This document shows, in pieces, positions 8,978 to 17,266 of a DNA stretch of 19,141 nucleotides. Within the stretch, counting starts at the first letter, position 1. Each line of letters starts with the position of its first letter. Position numbers and translations under genes: made by a program. Below the pieces are notes generated by a model. The model was given only the letters and a program-made list of their open reading frames with translations, was not told where the DNA came from and searched no databases. The stretch covers positions 1 through 19,141 of the forward strand of contig PATE01000111.1 in the NCBI GenBank assembly GCA_002712305.1. Reading direction: 5' to 3'. This DNA is from Gemmatimonadota bacterium (GTDB lineage Bacteria; Latescibacterota; UBA2968; UBA8231).

Positions 8978-9496
8978 CTATTCGGCAAGGTCATCGACGT
9001 CGATTTCGACCAGTTCCACCTCAGCCAGCAGATCGCAGACTTCGTCGAACAGGCCGGCAAACAGCCGCCCCGCAAGATGAGCCAGATCTCCGGCCAGGGC
9101 CCCTGCCGCAAAGTGGGCGGCGAAACACTGCCCCACAGCCGCAGCCAACCCGGCCGTCGTGTGCTCGTCTTCGATCACCGCGTGGAAGGTCTCAAGGCGC
9201 TGTTGGAGAAGCTCTGACGCTTGGGAATCGTGGTGGCCTTCTCGGATCCGTGCCGCGAATTGCTCTCGCAATTGCATGGCCACCTGATCGTCGCTGAGGC
9301 TGATCTGTAGAGCCAACTCCACGGCAAATGCTCGGGTGTGCAGCAATTCGAGCTGGATGATCTCAGGAGCAACACCCAGGGGTTCAGCCAACGATTGAAC
9401 TGCTTCCATCTCGCCCGCTCCGGGCTCGACAACAATCTGTCGAAGCAGTACACCCAGCTCGATCGCGCTCGCTTGTCGACGTGGTGGGATGGTCAA
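8978..9496 (-). CDS. Hypothetical alpha-helical protein
   Basis: I do not recognise this 172-aa protein. It is rich in Ala, Leu, Glu and Gln and should be nearly all helical. It has no signal peptide, no convincing membrane segment and an acidic C-terminus (VELVEIDVDDLAE). The start is taken as TTG at 9496 because AAGGA lies seven bases upstream, an unusually good Shine-Dalgarno for this window. The next in-frame ATG would remove about 30 residues. It ends in TAG and is convergent with the RsmC-like gene (37 bases between stops). Its start faces the membrane coiled-coil gene at 9585 across about 90 bases. The coding evidence is length, composition and start signal only. Confidence 0.55.
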   Translation of the reverse strand: MTIPPRRQASAIELGVLLRQIVVEPGAGEMEAVQSLAEPLGVAPEIIQLELLHTRAFAVELALQISLSDDQVAMQLREQFAARIREGHHDSQASELLQQRLETFHAVIEDEHTTAGLAAAVGQCFAAHFAAGALAGDLAHLAGRLFAGLFDEVCDLLAEVELVEIDVDDLAE

Positions 9497-9584
9497 TGCA
9501 GCGTCCTTCCGTTGCCGCGTGCGGTATCGGTCCCTATGCTGCCCATCTCCGGCGCTGCCGCCACCCTGCCCTTCTGGTTCCGGT

Positions 9585-9983
9585 ATGTTCGATTTTCTTC
9601 AGCGACGCGAAGTCCTCGACATCATCCTCAGCTCCAAGGTCGTGTTCAGTGCCGTATTCACCCTGGCCCTGTTCATCGTCGTCCACTCTGTATTGATGTT
9701 CATGCGCCAGAGTGGTGAACTCTATACACGGCTCGCACAAATCGACGCCGACCTCAACGTCTTGCACGCCAGCATCCCGGGCAAGCTGGAACGCATCACC
9801 CAGTTGCGACGCGATCTGGAACCGCTGCAGGCGGACTTTCGCCAGATTCAGGCGTACTATTCGCGGTTGCAGCATCTGGAAAGAACGTCGATGGAGCAAG
9901 AGGTGGAAGCTGAGCGTGAGGAAGAGGCGGAGAAGGACAAACGTATTCAGCACCAGAAGCTCGGATTGGATCGGTTCATCTAG
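9585..9983 (+). CDS. Small membrane-anchored coiled-coil protein, unknown function
   Basis: A 132-aa protein I cannot assign. It has a short cytoplasmic-looking N-terminus (MFDFLQRREVLDIILSSK), one membrane segment at about residues 19-41 (VVFSAVFTLALFIVVHSVLMF), then a long charged helix likely to form a coiled coil, with a very acidic/basic stretch (EQEVEAEREEEAEKDKR). The frame is open upstream, but those 32 residues are Cys/Pro/Ser-rich and improbable, so ATG at 9585 is chosen although no clear ribosome-binding site precedes it. It ends in TAG. The architecture resembles small membrane adaptor or division/secretion accessory proteins, but nothing in the sequence names one. The neighbours are also unrecognised. 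Confidence 0.65.
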   Translation: MFDFLQRREVLDIILSSKVVFSAVFTLALFIVVHSVLMFMRQSGELYTRLAQIDADLNVLHASIPGKLERITQLRRDLEPLQADFRQIQAYYSRLQHLERTSMEQEVEAEREEEAEKDKRIQHQKLGLDRFI

Positions 9984-10028
9984 CGCGGCGGGAAAACAGA
10001 CCCGTGAGGGTTTTGACCACCTCAGCCG

Positions 10029-10688
10029 CTAAAAGATCAGACCCGTTCCCATATCCGCAACGATCTCCCCCGCCTGCTGATCGACATATCCGTCGTCGGT
10101 GATCCGACTTTCCAGATAATAGATCCGCTCCCATCCCATGGCCGTGTAGACGAGGAATCGGACTCGGCCTGATCCGTCTTCATCGGTGCGCACCGTCGGT
10201 GTGTAGTCATCGGGTCGGCGCAAGTCACTCACCTTGCGGGCCTTGGTGAGGGCTTCATCGAAGCCGGCTTCGGTGAAAATGGGCGTTGATTCAAGCCACT
10301 CAGCGGCGTAGCGACTCACTCTCAGAGACCACATCTCGATGATGAAGTACGCGTATTCGAACGCGCCGGCCAGCGTTTGCCCATAGTCCAGGTACTTGTA
10401 CAGCTGTTCCACCAGTTCATCCCGCATCGGCACTTCCCCTTCATAAAAAGGCATCCAGGAGTCGTCGTCGGCGGGCCTGGCGAAGGGACGGATGGGGAGT
10501 TCGACGCCGGCGGCGGAAGTCTCCACCATGTAGTCGAGGATGTAGCCGTTTCGTGTATTGACCCGTGGAAACAGCGCCAACAAGGCGTTCACATCATCCG
10601 CTGGACTCGACGGATGAGAGCGATCGCGAAATTGCTGGACCTGCTTGCGCAGATCTTCGGCGGTGTCTGTAGGGATGTGTTCGAGCAT
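10029..10688 (-). CDS. Hypothetical protein
   Basis: Unrecognised protein of 219 aa, probably soluble: no signal peptide or membrane segment is seen. The upstream ~80 residues of the open frame are Arg/Pro-rich shadow; the ATG at 10688 gives MLEHIPTDTAEDLRKQVQQF, a sensible N-terminus. Striking parts are an aromatic helix (GAFEYAYFIIEMWSLRVSRYAAEW) and a C-terminal strand-rich region (RVRFLVYTAMGWERIYYLESRI). It is convergent with the membrane coiled-coil gene (45 bases between stops). On the other side it faces the PAS fragment. It ends in TAG. The composition is clearly protein-like, so I believe it is coding, without a function. Confidence 0.65.
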   Translation of the reverse strand: MLEHIPTDTAEDLRKQVQQFRDRSHPSSPADDVNALLALFPRVNTRNGYILDYMVETSAAGVELPIRPFARPADDDSWMPFYEGEVPMRDELVEQLYKYLDYGQTLAGAFEYAYFIIEMWSLRVSRYAAEWLESTPIFTEAGFDEALTKARKVSDLRRPDDYTPTVRTDEDGSGRVRFLVYTAMGWERIYYLESRITDDGYVDQQAGEIVADMGTGLIF

Positions 10689-10759
10689 GAGAGATTGCGG
10701 CGTCCGGACTGCCCAAGATAGCCTGGGATCACGTTGCCAACAAGCAGGCTGCCCGCTAG

Positions 10760-11203
10760 TGGTGCGCATTCGCGCACAGCGAGTTAGGGCCACAGATTGC
10801 AGAACGGACTCGGGTGGACGGCAGCGACGAACTGGAGCGGTCTGAAGCGGCTCAACGCCAGGCCAGCGACGAATTGCACCAGCGAGTGGAAGAGCGTGCC
10901 GCCGACCTGCGGTCTGTGGATGAGTCATTGCAGCGCGAAGCTGCCCAGCGGCAGCGAAGTGAAGAGCGATTCCGCAACATCTTCGAATACTCCAACGATG
11001 CCATCCTCGTGCTTGATCCGGATCACGACGAGATCCTCGACGCGAATCCTCGTGCCTGCAGATTGCTGTCCTGCACTCGAGAGGAACTCGGCAATCTCAC
11101 GCTCGGTGCCCTGTTTCCTGAAGACCTTGCTCGACTGCAGTCGTTTGCTCTGGCCGTGGTGGAGGATGGCTTCGGTTGGATGGACGAGATCAGTTGTCAG
11201 ACC
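10760..11203 (+). pseudogene. N-terminal PAS-domain fragment of a sensor kinase, 3'-truncated
   Basis: The frame opens after a TAG at 10757-10759, with a possible GTG start at 10814. It reads a charged helical linker (ELERSEAAQRQASDELHQRV and onward) followed by a PAS domain: RSEERFRNIFEYSNDAILV, DPDHDEILDANPRACRLL, CTREELGNLTLGALFPED, then WMDEISCQT. In relatives the last motif continues into KSG and the rest of the PAS core, then a histidine kinase. Here it is cut at about 11203, and the following DNA is the 3' side of a flagellin gene on the opposite strand. No kinase module is present. The reading frame continues to 11329, but those residues are flagellin antisense. The fragment's own 5' end is also uncertain. 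Confidence 0.7.
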
Positions 11204-11679
11204 CTGGTGTCGGTGGCATCGGTGAATGAAGTCGAAGTCGTTCGATCCACCTCGGCGAAACCAGCCAACAGCACACGGCCATTGTACACCGTCGCCTGCG
11301 CGATTCGTTCGATGGCCGCTGTAGCTTGATCGAACTCTGAGGTGAGCACTTCGCGCTGCTTGTCGGTGAGGTGGCCGTTGGCGGACTGTGTGGCCAGTAC
11401 GCGCATCCTCTGCAGCAGCGACGTCGATTCCTCCAGCGATCCTTCTGCGATCTTGAGCAAGTCCGTCGCCTACTCGGCGTTTTTTACGTTCTAACCCAAG
11501 CGGGTGACCTGCGCTCGAAAGCCCTCGGAGATTGATAAACCGGCGGCATCATTGGAGGCTCGTTTGATCCTCAAGCCCAAACCGATGGCCTCGAGGCGAC
11601 CCTCTTGGCTCGCGCGATTACGACTAATCCGATGAGAGACGTTGATCGCCGAAATGTTGCTGTTGATCGACAGAGGCAT
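11197..11679 (-). pseudogene. Flagellin N-terminal part with two in-frame TAG codons, 3'-truncated
   Basis: One continuous minus-strand frame encodes a recognisable flagellin start: MPLSINSNISAINVSHRISR, GLGLRIKRASNDAAGLSISE, then LLKIAEGSLEESTSLLQRMR and IAQATVYNGRVLLAGF. It is interrupted by TAG at 11491-11493 and again at 11470-11472, seven codons apart. Reading through gives TRLG*NVKNAE*ATDLLKIA. Flagellins normally have Gln at both stop positions, and CAG to TAG is a single transition each. The gene then breaks off at 11197-11204, losing the variable domain and the C-terminal helix needed for filament assembly. The ATG at 11679 has a purine-rich AAGGAAG upstream. Because other genes here end in TAG, recoding is unlikely and this is a pseudogene. 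Confidence 0.85.
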
Positions 11680-11707
11680 GGGGAGCTTCCTTCACACGAC
11701 TTGGTAT

Positions 11708-11734
11708 GATTCGGCGCTGAAACATTCCTCTGAA
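11708..11734 (-). promoter_or_regulatory. Possible sigma-28-like flagellar promoter
   Basis: On the minus strand CTTCAG and GCCGAATC are placed so that TTCA and GCCGAATC are 15 bases apart, the spacing of the flagellar sigma-28 consensus (CTAAAG, 15 bases, GCCGATAA). It lies about 30 bases before the flagellin ATG, a correct distance. The match is partial, 4 of 6 in the first box and the first five bases of the second, so it may be a decayed promoter or chance. Confidence 0.25.
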
Positions 11735-11818
11735 GCTACTGATAATACGGGAGTTAGATAGGATCACACTCCCCCCGTATCATCGGGCGGTTGGCTGGAT
11801 GCTTGAGGTTTTTTGATG

Positions 11819-11853
11819 AAAAAAGGCTCGCGGAACCTGAAAGGTTGCGAGCC
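11819..11853 (-). terminator. Intrinsic terminator of the zinc-finger gene
   Basis: GGCTCGC at 11825-11831 pairs perfectly with GCGAGCC at 11847-11853. Inside it, AACCT and AGGTT pair around a three-base loop, with a two-base bulge on one arm. On the minus strand the hairpin is followed by six T residues (plus-strand A run at 11819-11824). It sits about 50 bases beyond the stop of the minus-strand gene at 11901 and should end that transcript before the flagellin remnant. Confidence 0.85.
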
Positions 11854-11900
11854 GATGGGGCATCAGATCGTGGTGGGTGGGGAGGCCGTGTGGCCGGCGC

Positions 11901-12338
11901 TCAGTCCCCGGTCCCGAGTAGTTGATCGATGCCCTCGGTTTCTTCGACGCTCGGTTCGTCGACCGCATTGGGACGAACGCCGGTTCGCTTCTCAACCCGG
12001 TCGGACCAGGCCTCCTCCAGATTCTGGAGATATCGTGTCGCTGCCGTGCGCTCGTGGCCTTTCTGTGTGATCAGTCGTTCGTAGAGTGCCTCACCCACCA
12101 GACCATCTTCTCTGGCCTGCCGCAATAACTGTGCGTCCTGCTGCAACTCCGCCAGTCGACGTAATTGCACCATGACGTCCTCTTCGAGGCGTCGAAGCGA
12201 CCCATCGATGCGGACCCCTGCGGCCATCCGCTTGGCCTGCTCGAGCTCGTACTCGTGTTCGAATCTCAGGTGCCCGTTGAGGCCGCGTAAAGAGACGCGT
12301 TTGCCACATTCGGGGCACACTACCTTCAGATCTGCCAT
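11901..12338 (-). CDS. C2H2 zinc-finger/coiled-coil protein, unknown function
   Basis: A 145-aa protein with an N-terminal CPECGKRVSLRGLNGHLRFEH: Cys8, Cys11, His23 and His28 form a C-x2-C-x11-H-x4-H pattern consistent with a small zinc finger. The next ~80 residues are a charged helix likely to form a coiled coil (LEEDVMVQLRRLAELQQDAQL). A polar tail with many Glu ends in LLGTGD. This could bind nucleic acid or act as a structural adaptor; the sequence does not decide. The ATG at 12338 lacks a strong Shine-Dalgarno. It is divergent from the dgcN-like gene (about 107 bases between starts) and has its own intrinsic terminator at 11819-11853, so it is a monocistronic unit. Confidence 0.75.
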   Translation of the reverse strand: MADLKVVCPECGKRVSLRGLNGHLRFEHEYELEQAKRMAAGVRIDGSLRRLEEDVMVQLRRLAELQQDAQLLRQAREDGLVGEALYERLITQKGHERTAATRYLQNLEEAWSDRVEKRTGVRPNAVDEPSVEETEGIDQLLGTGD

Positions 12339-12445
12339 ATCAATATGCGCGTAAAGGTTTGTTTTCGTGTCAAATATACGAATCCTGATCGATCCTGCCC
12401 GACATGCCTTGACCCTGTCGCTGGACCCCGGTAGGTTGCTCCAGC

Positions 12446-13450
12446 ATGCTCACGATCAACCCCCCCTATCTGATGTTTCTCGGCGATGCGGCAGATCAGC
12501 TGGCGGCAAAGACCGCAGACGGTGTGGCGCGTTGGCGACCGGACTGGTGCCTTGGACAGCTGCGCCTCGAGGGGTGCCAGGCGGACATCGGGCTCGAAGA
12601 TCTGACCATAGATCAGGCTCGCCAGGCCGGTGCCCAAACCCTGGTCGTGGGTGTGGCCAATCGAGGCGGCATCATCTCTGAGGTATGGTTGGAAACGCTG
12701 CTTGCCGCGCTGGACGCCGGTTTCGATATCGCCAGCGGTCTGCATAACCGCCTCGGAGATCTTCCCGCACTGGCGGAGCGTGCTCAGGCCACAGGTCGAC
12801 AACTGGTGGACGTCCGCTACCCGGACGTTGAGCTGAAAGTAGGCCAGGGCACGCCGCGCACGGGACGTCGATTGCTGACCGTGGGTACCGACTGTTCCTG
12901 CGGAAAGATGTTCACGGCCCTTGCCATCGAGCGTGAACTGCAATCCCAATCACGCAAAGCCACTTTCCGCGCCACGGGCCAGACAGGCATCCTGATCGCC
13001 GGGACGGGTGTCTCCGTCGATGCGGTGATCGCCGATTTCATCGCCGGTGCGACCGAGCAACTTGCGCCAGACAACGACGACGATCATTGGGATCTTATCG
13101 AAGGACAGGGCTCGCTGTTCCATGCTTCCTATGCGGGCGTGTCCATGGGACTACTCCACGGCGCTCAGGCCCACGCCCTTGTGCTGTGCCACGAGCCGAC
13201 GCGAACCCACATGCGAGGTTTGCCACAAGCGCACCTTCCCTCGATCGCACAGTGCATTGACCTCAACGAACGCTGCGGCCGACTCACCAATCCCGACTGT
13301 CGCGTCATCGGCATCTCCCTGAATACGTCACAGTTACCCGACGACCAAGTCGACGACACCTGCAAGAGGATCGAGCATGAGACGGGGTTGCCCACGATCG
13401 ACGCCTATCGCCATGGCTCAGAACGTCTCGTAGAAGCCTTACCGGAATAA
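12446..13450 (+). CDS. dgcN: DgcN-like N-acyltransferase (DUF1611), D-glutamate N-acetylation
   Basis: A 334-aa DUF1611-family protein. It has the family's P-loop-like GTDCSCGKM (147-155), preceded by a Rossmann-like half with LVVGVANRGG (66-74) and SGLHNRLGD. It then shows the very conserved ATGQTGILIAGTGVSVDAVI, DFIAGATEQLAP and WDLIEGQGSLFHASYAGVS. Members next to a DgcA-type epimerase are named DgcN: they are reported to acetylate D-glutamate to N-acetyl-D-glutamate with acetyl-CoA in the cytoplasm. The older annotation for the family is NAD-dependent epimerase/dehydratase. The gene lies 74 bases before the dgcA-like gene on the same strand, which strongly supports the assignment. The exact amino-acid substrate is inferred from the family. 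Confidence 0.85.
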   Translation: MLTINPPYLMFLGDAADQLAAKTADGVARWRPDWCLGQLRLEGCQADIGLEDLTIDQARQAGAQTLVVGVANRGGIISEVWLETLLAALDAGFDIASGLHNRLGDLPALAERAQATGRQLVDVRYPDVELKVGQGTPRTGRRLLTVGTDCSCGKMFTALAIERELQSQSRKATFRATGQTGILIAGTGVSVDAVIADFIAGATEQLAPDNDDDHWDLIEGQGSLFHASYAGVSMGLLHGAQAHALVLCHEPTRTHMRGLPQAHLPSIAQCIDLNERCGRLTNPDCRVIGISLNTSQLPDDQVDDTCKRIEHETGLPTIDAYRHGSERLVEALPE

Positions 13451-13524
13451 GACTCGTGGAGAGTAGGGCACGTCCGATGATGAAGTTGGCGGTCCAGGCG
13501 ATGAGGCCGACGGACTGAGTTCGA

Positions 13525-14508
13525 ATGGATCTTCGCGTCTACCATGAGTCATGGCCATTGGCCACGGCCTTCACGATTTCTCGGGGTACGAAGACCCAGG
13601 CTGACGTCGTCGTCGTAGAGGTTGAGCGCGACGGTCACATCGGTCGGGGTGAGTGTGTGCCCTATCCTCGATACGAAGAGACCGTCGACGGCGTGATGGC
13701 CACGCTCGAGTCCCTTCGGCAAGCCCTCGCTCAGGGCCTCGACCGGGTGGCTCTGCAGCAGATCCTGTCCGCAGGGGCAGCGCGCAATGCCCTGGATTGT
13801 GCTTTGTGGTCTTGGGAAGCCGCACGTGCGGGATGCCGTGTCCATGAGCTTCTCGGCATGGATGCGCCGGGCCCTTTCACGACGGCCTACACGTTGAGTC
13901 TGGCAACTCCGACCCAGATGAGGGATGCCGCTGCCGAACAAGTTGAGCGCCCGCTGTTGAAGTTGAAACTCGCCGGTGACGGGCTGGATACGGATCGAGT
14001 TGCGGGTGTGCGCTCGGGTGCACCGAACGCACGGATCATCGTCGATGCCAATGAAGGTGGGCAGGAGGCGGAGTTGGGTGACTTGCTGTCGAGCCTTGCA
14101 GGTCTGGGCGTCGATCTGGTCGAACAGCCCCTGCCAGCTGGGCAGGACCTCGCGTTACAGCAGATGGAACACCCGATCCCGATCTGTGCCGATGAGTCCT
14201 GTCACACCTCTGATGATCTTCCGCAGCTGATCGATCGATACGATCTGGTGAACATCAAACTCGACAAGACCGGCGGGCTGACTGAAGCCCTCGCCCTTCG
14301 CGACGCTGCACGGTCCGCAGGCCTGGGCATGATGGTGGGCTGTATGGTGGGTACTTCGCTGTCCATGGCGCCCGCACTGTTGCTGGCAACCGGTGCGCAG
14401 GTCGTCGACCTCGACGGCCCCCTGTTGCTGGCCGCGGATCGAACACCGGGGCTGAGCTATCAACAGAGTCAGCTGATGCCTGCACCCGCAGGCCTATGGG
14501 ATGGATGA
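13525..14508 (+). CDS. dgcA: DgcA-like N-acetyl-D-glutamate racemase (dipeptide epimerase family)
   Basis: Enolase-superfamily enzyme of 327 aa, predicted to racemise N-acetyl-D-glutamate to the L form, which a deacetylase could then turn into L-glutamate. It has the acid-base pair typical of dipeptide epimerases: KLKL (Lys146, Lys148) on one side and NIKLDKTGG (Lys245) on the other. The metal ligands are Asp174 (VDANEG), Glu200 (VEQPLP) and Asp223 (CADES). N-terminal capping-domain features such as GRGECVPYPRYEE (40-52) are present. No disruption is seen. The ATG at 13525 has a poor ribosome-binding site. It forms a unit with the dgcN-like gene. The deacetylase partner is not in this window. 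Some relatives are L-Ala-D/L-Glu epimerases, but the DUF1611 neighbour favours DgcA. Confidence 0.85.
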   Translation: MDLRVYHESWPLATAFTISRGTKTQADVVVVEVERDGHIGRGECVPYPRYEETVDGVMATLESLRQALAQGLDRVALQQILSAGAARNALDCALWSWEAARAGCRVHELLGMDAPGPFTTAYTLSLATPTQMRDAAAEQVERPLLKLKLAGDGLDTDRVAGVRSGAPNARIIVDANEGGQEAELGDLLSSLAGLGVDLVEQPLPAGQDLALQQMEHPIPICADESCHTSDDLPQLIDRYDLVNIKLDKTGGLTEALALRDAARSAGLGMMVGCMVGTSLSMAPALLLATGAQVVDLDGPLLLAADRTPGLSYQQSQLMPAPAGLWDG

Positions 14509-14554
14509 CAGCAGAGGGATGTTGCGGCTTCCCTTGGGCCTCTTGTTTGGCGCT

Positions 14555-15805
14555 CTAGGCACTTGATGTCTGCAAAGGAGGGCGAGCGGCCAACGCCGCG
14601 ATGGACCCGAGGACTGCTAGCAAGGCCAGGGTGAGGAATGCGCCCCGGTAGGACCCCGTCAGGTCGCGGACGATACCTGAGAACAAGGGCCCGGAGGTCA
14701 TGCCCACCATGATCAACATGGCGCTAAAACCACTGATCGTTGCGTAAGCGCGTCGACCAAAATAGTCAGCCCTGATGGAGTTGATAATCGTGCCCCGGAT
14801 CCCCCAGGCCGCGCCATGCAGGACGGCAAAGATCATCGTCCCCGCGATCGTCGTCGCGTAGGCGAACACAACCATCGCCACCGCGTGCATCCACATCGCG
14901 ATAAAGATGATCCATCGCTTGTCGACGCGATCTCCGATCCACCCGCCGGACAACTGTCCTCCGATCACCACCACAACGAGCAAGGCCACAACCTGCCCTG
15001 CGCGCGTCTGTGACAGCCCCACTCCTTCGACCATATGGGGAATCTGGTGGACGAGCACTGTACCGACGATCAGAAGCGCACTGGCGTGGACGAGGGAAAG
15101 AAACCAGAACGCACGGGAGCGCAGCGCTTCGCCAGCCGAGAAACTCGGTTCCGCTTGCGGAGGCGTCACGCTCGCCTCCTGTTGATCCAATTCGCCATCG
15201 GGGCGTTGCCCATAGTCTTCGGGCCGACGTCGCATCAGCTGTGAGGCTGGAATCGTGATACAGGCGATCAGGAGTGCCGAACACATCGCCATCCATCGCC
15301 AGCCGTGCAGTTGAATGAGATAGACCACGGCGGGCACGAGCAGTCCCCCCGTGCCCATGCCAGCCAGGGTGAGTCCCAAAGCGGTGGAACGATGTCGTGA
15401 AAACCACTGCATCACCGTCGTCGAGATCGGCATGAAACCACCCAGACTCGATCCCAGGGCAATGGTGGCCAGGGCGACATAGAAGGACGTCAGCGACGAG
15501 GTATGGGCGAACAAAAGAAACCCGATGGCGAACAGCGCGTTGCCTGCGGTCATCACCTTGCGTGGACCCATCCGATCGATCAACCATCCTTGCGCGGGAC
15601 CGAGGATCCCGGATTCCAATTGCACGAGGGCGAAAGCGCTGGCGAGGATAGTCCGGCTCCAGCCGAACTCGGCTTGCAGGGGCAACACGTACGCGCTGAA
15701 GGCATGGAAGAGCAGCCCACCATTCAACAGCTGCACGACGAACCCAGCGACGACGATAATCCAACCGTAGAACAACACATCTCCTAGGTGGTGGGTGCTC
15801 ACCAA
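14555..15805 (-). CDS. MFS transporter, monocarboxylate/oxalate-formate antiporter-like
   Basis: Twelve-helix major facilitator of about 416 aa. The first helix begins FYGWIIVVAGFVVQLLNGGL, followed by PLQAEFGWSRT, and the loop between helices 2 and 3 reads GWLIDRMGPRKVM, the MFS motif A. The second half repeats it as GGWIGDRVDKRWI. This N-terminal style is typical of the MCT/oxalate-formate antiporter group that carries small organic anions. It is convergent with dgcA (46 bases between ends), so it may or may not serve that pathway. The start is TTG at 15805 or, equally plausibly, GTG at 15802; neither has a clear Shine-Dalgarno. It ends in TAG. The substrate is not determinable. Confidence 0.88.
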   Translation of the reverse strand: MVSTHHLGDVLFYGWIIVVAGFVVQLLNGGLLFHAFSAYVLPLQAEFGWSRTILASAFALVQLESGILGPAQGWLIDRMGPRKVMTAGNALFAIGFLLFAHTSSLTSFYVALATIALGSSLGGFMPISTTVMQWFSRHRSTALGLTLAGMGTGGLLVPAVVYLIQLHGWRWMAMCSALLIACITIPASQLMRRRPEDYGQRPDGELDQQEASVTPPQAEPSFSAGEALRSRAFWFLSLVHASALLIVGTVLVHQIPHMVEGVGLSQTRAGQVVALLVVVVIGGQLSGGWIGDRVDKRWIIFIAMWMHAVAMVVFAYATTIAGTMIFAVLHGAAWGIRGTIINSIRADYFGRRAYATISGFSAMLIMVGMTSGPLFSGIVRDLTGSYRGAFLTLALLAVLGSIAALAARPPLQTSSA

Positions 15806-15970: not shown

Positions 15971-16498
15971 ATGAGAACATCTCTCATCGTGGGAATGTTG
16001 GGTGCAGCTGCGCTGTGTTTGACCGTTGCCGATGCCGCCGATGCAGGCTCACGTCGCGGCGGCCGTGAGGGCCACGGCGGCAGAGGCTTGTGTGGAAGCG
16101 GACCGACGGGCATCGACGTCGAGCAACGAGATGCCCGGCATGCTGAGCGGCGGGCCTCCTTGGCCGATGCCCTTGAATTGACGGACGAACAGATCGCCGC
16201 CTGGGACCTGCTGCGCGAGGATGCCCAGCAGGCCAAGGATGACTTGTGTGCCGCTGGGGAAGTGAGCCGTGAGGATGCTCGTGCGCTGCGCACCTCCCGA
16301 CACGAGGTCTTCGTCTCCATTCTGACCCAGGACCAGCAGGAGGCATTGAAGAGTCTGCGACAGGAACGTCGGTCGGCTCGTGGGCCTCACGACAGAGCAG
16401 ATGATGATGAGCCAACTTCTGAAGAGGCGATCGAAGGTGCTAGCAAGGCCGCCGTCGCCAACACGACGTGGGCTGAAATCAAGATGGAAGCCCGCTAG
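15971..16498 (+). CDS. Exported Spy/CpxP-like (LTXXQ) protein with W-x-x-I-K tail
   Basis: Predicted periplasmic protein of 175 aa. The N-terminus MRTSLIVGMLGAAALCLTVADAADAG is a signal peptide. A Gly/Arg-rich linker with two Cys follows, then a helical region with LADALELTDEQIAAWDLLRE (65-84) and VSILTQDQQEALKSLRQER (115-133). These are the paired LTxxQ-type motifs of the Spy/CpxP fold, a periplasmic chaperone/stress sensor. It is more divergent than true Spy. It ends ANTTWAEIKMEAR; the TTWAEIK motif recurs in the next protein as TSWGDVK. A strong ribosome-binding site precedes the ATG. First gene of a two-gene operon with a terminator after the second. A role in envelope stress or metal sensing is inferred from family only. 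Confidence 0.75.
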   Translation: MRTSLIVGMLGAAALCLTVADAADAGSRRGGREGHGGRGLCGSGPTGIDVEQRDARHAERRASLADALELTDEQIAAWDLLREDAQQAKDDLCAAGEVSREDARALRTSRHEVFVSILTQDQQEALKSLRQERRSARGPHDRADDDEPTSEEAIEGASKAAVANTTWAEIKMEAR

Positions 16499-16537
16499 GG
16501 ATTGGCCGTCGCCACCGAAAGATTCGAGAGGAAGACG

Positions 16538-17266
16538 ATGATGAAACGAATCATGACTCTAGGCGCTACGGCGCTGGTGCTTGTGCTGATGTTGGACGCA
16601 TCCGAGGCGCAGCGCCCAGGCCGGGGATCCGAGAGCCGGGTCGGCGGCGACGGCGCAGGACGTCTCGCCGAAGCTCTGTCACTGACCGCAGATCAACAGG
16701 CTCAGCTCAAGTCACTTCGTCAGCAAATGCACGAACAGATGGAGTCTCTGCGCCAACAGGGAACAGAGCTGCGCAGCGAAGCCAGATCTCTCCGCGATCA
16801 ACACCGGCAACAGGTCAGATCGATTCTCACACCGGAGCAGCAGCAGGCACTGGCTCAGTTGAAGGCCGATCGGCCCGTTGGTCCGAGGGGCAGTGAGCGT
16901 GCCGGTCGACGGGCACGCGGGCGTCGGTTGGCAGAAAAACTGCAACTAACGCAGGAGCAGAGAGACGCGATGCAAGACTTGCGACGAGTCCATCGCCAAC
17001 AGGTGCAGGAGCTACGCGATGGTGCTTCCCGTGAGGACTTGCGTGCCCTGCACCAGGAGCACCGCGACTCGATGCGACAGGTGCTCACCGAGCAGCAGCG
17101 CCAGACGCTGGATCAGCTCCGCGCCGCGCGCCAGTCAAGCAAGCGCAGACCTCGGCGTGAAAGGCAACTCCCGCCTGATGGCGATCCATCGTTGGATGGA
17201 TCCGCCAGACCCGGTGTAGAGGGCACCAGTTGGGGGGATGTAAAGGAATCCGTCGACGGAGGGTGA
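16538..17266 (+). CDS. Exported protein with two tandem Spy/LTXXQ-like repeats
   Basis: Predicted periplasmic protein of 242 aa. The ATG at 16538 is chosen (preceded by GAGAGGAAG) because it begins the signal peptide MMKRIMTLGATALVLVLMLDASEA; the open frame extends only 12 codons further up. Two copies of a unit of roughly 87 aa follow. Copy one has LAEALSLTADQQAQLKSL (43-60) and VRSILTPEQQQAL (93-105). Copy two has LAEKLQLTQEQRDAMQDL (131-148) and MRQVLTEQQRQTL (179-191). The units resemble CpxP/Spy LTxxQ domains and are extremely rich in Gln, Arg and Glu, so coiled-coil-like helices are expected. The C-terminus carries TSWGDVK (230-236), matching the tail of the preceding gene. Spacing to that gene is 39 bases: one operon, probably with internal duplication. 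Confidence 0.78.
   Translation: MMKRIMTLGATALVLVLMLDASEAQRPGRGSESRVGGDGAGRLAEALSLTADQQAQLKSLRQQMHEQMESLRQQGTELRSEARSLRDQHRQQVRSILTPEQQQALAQLKADRPVGPRGSERAGRRARGRRLAEKLQLTQEQRDAMQDLRRVHRQQVQELRDGASREDLRALHQEHRDSMRQVLTEQQRQTLDQLRAARQSSKRRPRRERQLPPDGDPSLDGSARPGVEGTSWGDVKESVDGG

Follow-up and report, generated by a model that had tools for sequence, protein, structure and literature searches.

Convergent gene remnants in the window

The window analysed here, a 19,141-nucleotide stretch of a contig from a marine Gemmatimonadota bacterium, carries the beginning of a flagellin gene on its minus strand and, facing it on the plus strand, the beginning of a gene for a PAS/HisKA_2 histidine kinase (Table 1). 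The flagellin frame opens at 11679 and specifies 160 residues, with its final TGA just past a deletion junction. It matches the Pfam Flagellin_N profile over 136 positions (E 1.7e-32 with TAG read through) and has two internal stops only, the TAGs of codons 63 and 70, as the original prediction had described. In comparison with bacterial flagellin (FliC/FlaA; PF00669 and PF00700), these N-terminal positions match well but the gene is reduced to about 160 codons, contains two premature TAGs and is without the C-terminal domain: a domain search found Flagellin_C (PF00700) in the orthologue of the relative G001 and no match to it in the remnant. In the filament core the two terminal domains of flagellin pair with each other. 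With the C-terminal one gone, no flagellin could be made even if both TAGs were read as glutamine.

The expectation that the gene would show no other damage nearby was wrong. The 3' 58% of the gene has been deleted, the frame ends at residue 160, and residue 34 is Leu in the remnant while it is Ser in nine of nine other flagellins in an alignment that leaves out row L004, a substitution (S34L) confined to the window. The kinase remnant has likewise been cut short, its homology stopping at about residue 140 of the G001 protein.

Table 1. Features of the locus and of its counterparts in relatives (positions without a prefix are those of the window)
Feature	Position	Strand	Observation
Intact gene	9489..9983	+	Ends ...GLDRFI-TAG, C-terminus as in G001
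Intact gene, unknown function	10029..10691	-	Ends ...GTGLIF then TAG, same residue as relatives' ends
PAS/HisKA_2 histidine-kinase remnant, PAS N-terminal part only	10814..11203	+	HisKA_2 and HATPase domains absent
Junction of ~1.55-kb deletion	11203..11206		BLAST synteny and junction alignment; breakpoint approximate at ~73% identity
Flagellin remnant, first 160 codons	11197..11679	-	Flagellin_N match, no Flagellin_C; intact 390-aa orthologue
Premature TAG, codon 70	11470..11472	-	CAG in G001
Premature TAG, codon 63	11491..11493	-	CAG in G001
Intact zinc-finger-like protein gene	11901..12338	-	Syntenic in G001, G005, G009, G012, G015
Intact 396-aa kinase, G001	L024:2935-4125	+	PAS, HisKA_2, HATPase_c domains
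Intact 390-aa flagellin, G001	L024:4211-5383	-	Both terminal domains present
G012 flagellin remnant	L027:3109-3714	+	C-terminal part, middle deletion

The deletion and the locus in related genomes

G001, a Gemmatimonadetes MAG of the same genus (JABJJN010000067), is syntenic with the window at this locus, and there the flagellin and kinase genes converge. G005 and G009 also hold the convergent pair, so that an intact orthologue of the flagellin stands at the same locus in all three; the pair is thus ancestral. BLAST matched window 9292-11202 to L024 1427-3353 of G001 and window 11207-13451 to L024 4902-7192. The interval missing from the window, which measures 1,548 bp in G001 (L024:3354-4901), is present in G001, G005 and G009. 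Its absence has cost the flagellin gene the whole of Flagellin_C and the kinase gene about 65% of its length. Because these matches resume beyond the junction, one deletion very probably accounts for the loss of both 3' ends.

The lost flagellin half, used as a protein query against the window genome, found paralogues only (best 49% identity), and the lost interval as a DNA query gave short matches only, most of them inside flagellin paralogues. The lost kinase half had no match in the window genome, and control searches of G001, G005 and G009 recovered the source and its paralogues. That neither missing half was found elsewhere in the assembly fits a real deletion better than a rearrangement. 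In a separate observation, a query with the C-terminal part of the HisKA_2-type kinase found nine places in G001 (7.1 Mb) and none in the window genome (4.77 Mb, 91% complete), which suggests either a broader loss of this kinase class or an incomplete assembly.

At the syntenic place in G012 there is a different flagellin remnant, which has kept part of Flagellin_C but has lost ~135 residues at the N-terminus as well as a segment in the middle; no kinase was found beside it. The other matches to flagellin in this genome are fragments too, and one of them contains a TGA. In G015 no Flagellin_N gene was found anywhere in the genome, including the syntenic place. This flagellin has been lost more than once within the family, by a deletion in the window, by different deletions in G012 and by complete absence in G015. 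It is conceivable, if rather doubtful, that the convergent flagellin and HisKA_2 kinase work together, the kinase as a sensor for one particular filament protein, and that this unit has been lost repeatedly in this Gemmatimonadota family.

The premature stops, the genetic code and rival readings

Both TAGs correspond to CAG in G001 and align with Gln in G005 and G009, in agreement with the original claim that they fall at conserved glutamine positions. This placement is not informative about recoding. Among the N-terminal 160 codons of the G001 gene, 13 lie one transition from a stop (11 CAG, 1 CAA and 1 CGA), so C-to-T nonsense mutation mostly gives TAG at glutamine and the placement is as expected. 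Seven of the 78 possible pairs of these 13 codons are no more than seven codons apart. Synonymous sites are saturated in the comparison with G001 (dS about 2) and give no measure of a lineage-specific excess of C-to-T changes from damage or editing.

Flagellin_N was detected at eight places genome-wide: the remnant with its two TAGs and seven stop-free long frames (393-488 aa), the intact copies that the original prediction had proposed looking for. Between the remnant and G001 dN is 0.089 and, with the saturated dS, dN/dS is about 0.05, similar to the intact neighbours. The remnant has nine amino-acid changes found only in the window, two of them the stops, against four in G001; lineage-specific changes in the neighbours number 32 in the window and 33 in G001, and the remnant's excess is not significant (p 0.23). 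The remnant still shows the signature of strong past purifying selection. This is compatible with a gene that died recently, though it is no proof. Given the low dN/dS, inactivation probably came long after the lineage parted from G001.

We weighed whether TAG is read as glutamine, genome-wide or through a suppressor tRNA, on the evidence of the neighbouring genes, release factor RF1, the tRNAs and multi-copy families. The position of both TAGs in Gln columns speaks for this reading, but codons one transition from a stop are mostly CAG here regardless, and the flagellin is in any case without its C-terminal domain. The argument that neighbouring TAG stops tell against a TAG-to-Gln code was well founded, since the genes ending at 9983 and 10029 terminate exactly at the C-termini of their relatives. 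In the intact neighbours within the window no TAG was found at conserved Gln columns, and stops occurred only in artificial 5' extensions of the start site. The RF1 gene (prfA) matches above the curated cut-off and has an open frame of 372 aa, intact by length. No tRNA with a CUA anticodon, the suppressor proposed as a check, was present among the 33 tRNAs found in the 91% complete assembly, where the only Gln anticodons are TTG and CTG. There are no internal stops in 58 ABC-transporter domain matches of the window genome, nor in the other seven flagellins. Neither recoding nor suppression is supported, and both are so strongly disfavoured that we give them practically no credence.

An artefact, in which the junction or the TAGs stem from wrong assembly or miscalled bases in a contig built from a metagenome, draws some plausibility from the fragmented state of the assembly (146 contigs) and from its being a single assembled genome. 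Against it stand the lack of the missing halves elsewhere, the synteny that runs on at both sides of the junction and the independent decay or loss of the gene in relatives; it would require a number of separate errors to coincide at a single dispensable locus and is improbable. A C-to-T sequence error at both TAGs, if real, would still leave the flagellin broken. More improbable again is that the N-terminal fragment has been kept as a short peptide (62 residues up to the first TAG) with a function of its own, for example in regulating flagellin export or as a decoy in it. In favour are an undamaged stretch from the start region through codon 62 and a low dN/dS to G001, but that ratio mainly records the time before the lesions, the conserved Ser34 has been altered, and relatives either hold the full gene or degrade other parts of it, as in G012, where a C-terminal piece is kept. 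We consider this peptide a very remote prospect.

Probable decay of a redundant flagellin gene

The remnant is very probably a recently dead, redundant flagellin gene, broken by a deletion of about 1.55 kb and by two premature stops, with the facing kinase cut by the same event. The ancestor would have carried a convergent flagellin gene (minus strand) and PAS/HisKA_2 sensor kinase gene (plus strand). A single deletion in the window lineage would have removed the 3' ends of both, and CAG-to-TAG transitions at codons 63 and 70 may have come before or after it. The loss was presumably tolerated, given the seven other full-length flagellins in the genome. The original prediction regarded nonsense inactivation as the simplest reading. 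Inactivation in preference to recoding is upheld by the true TAG stops, the RF1 gene and the lack of a CUA tRNA, but the stops are not the sole lesions.

Like other bacterial pseudogenes made by deletion and nonsense mutation in redundant families, the gene in the window is truncated, contains premature stops and has intact paralogues and orthologues. It differs from them in that one deletion killed two convergent neighbours; otherwise there is nothing unusual about it, and this is ordinary gene decay. A literature search for flagellin pseudogenes in Gemmatimonadota returned nothing on point. With these findings an apparent sign of stop-codon reassignment falls away: the gene with TAG at glutamine positions has lost its 3' half and TAG usage in the genome is ordinary. 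They also add a clean, if modest, case of an uncultured bacterium losing a redundant flagellin.

Elsewhere in the window, two adjacent plus-strand genes at 15971-17266, the second with an LTXXQ motif, resemble one G001 gene (L024:12759-13553) and are possibly a tandem duplication. Two genes of 420 and 586 aa at L024:8274-11333 in G001 are absent from the window at 14508-14555; in G001 they sit between an enolase-superfamily-like gene and an MFS-like gene.
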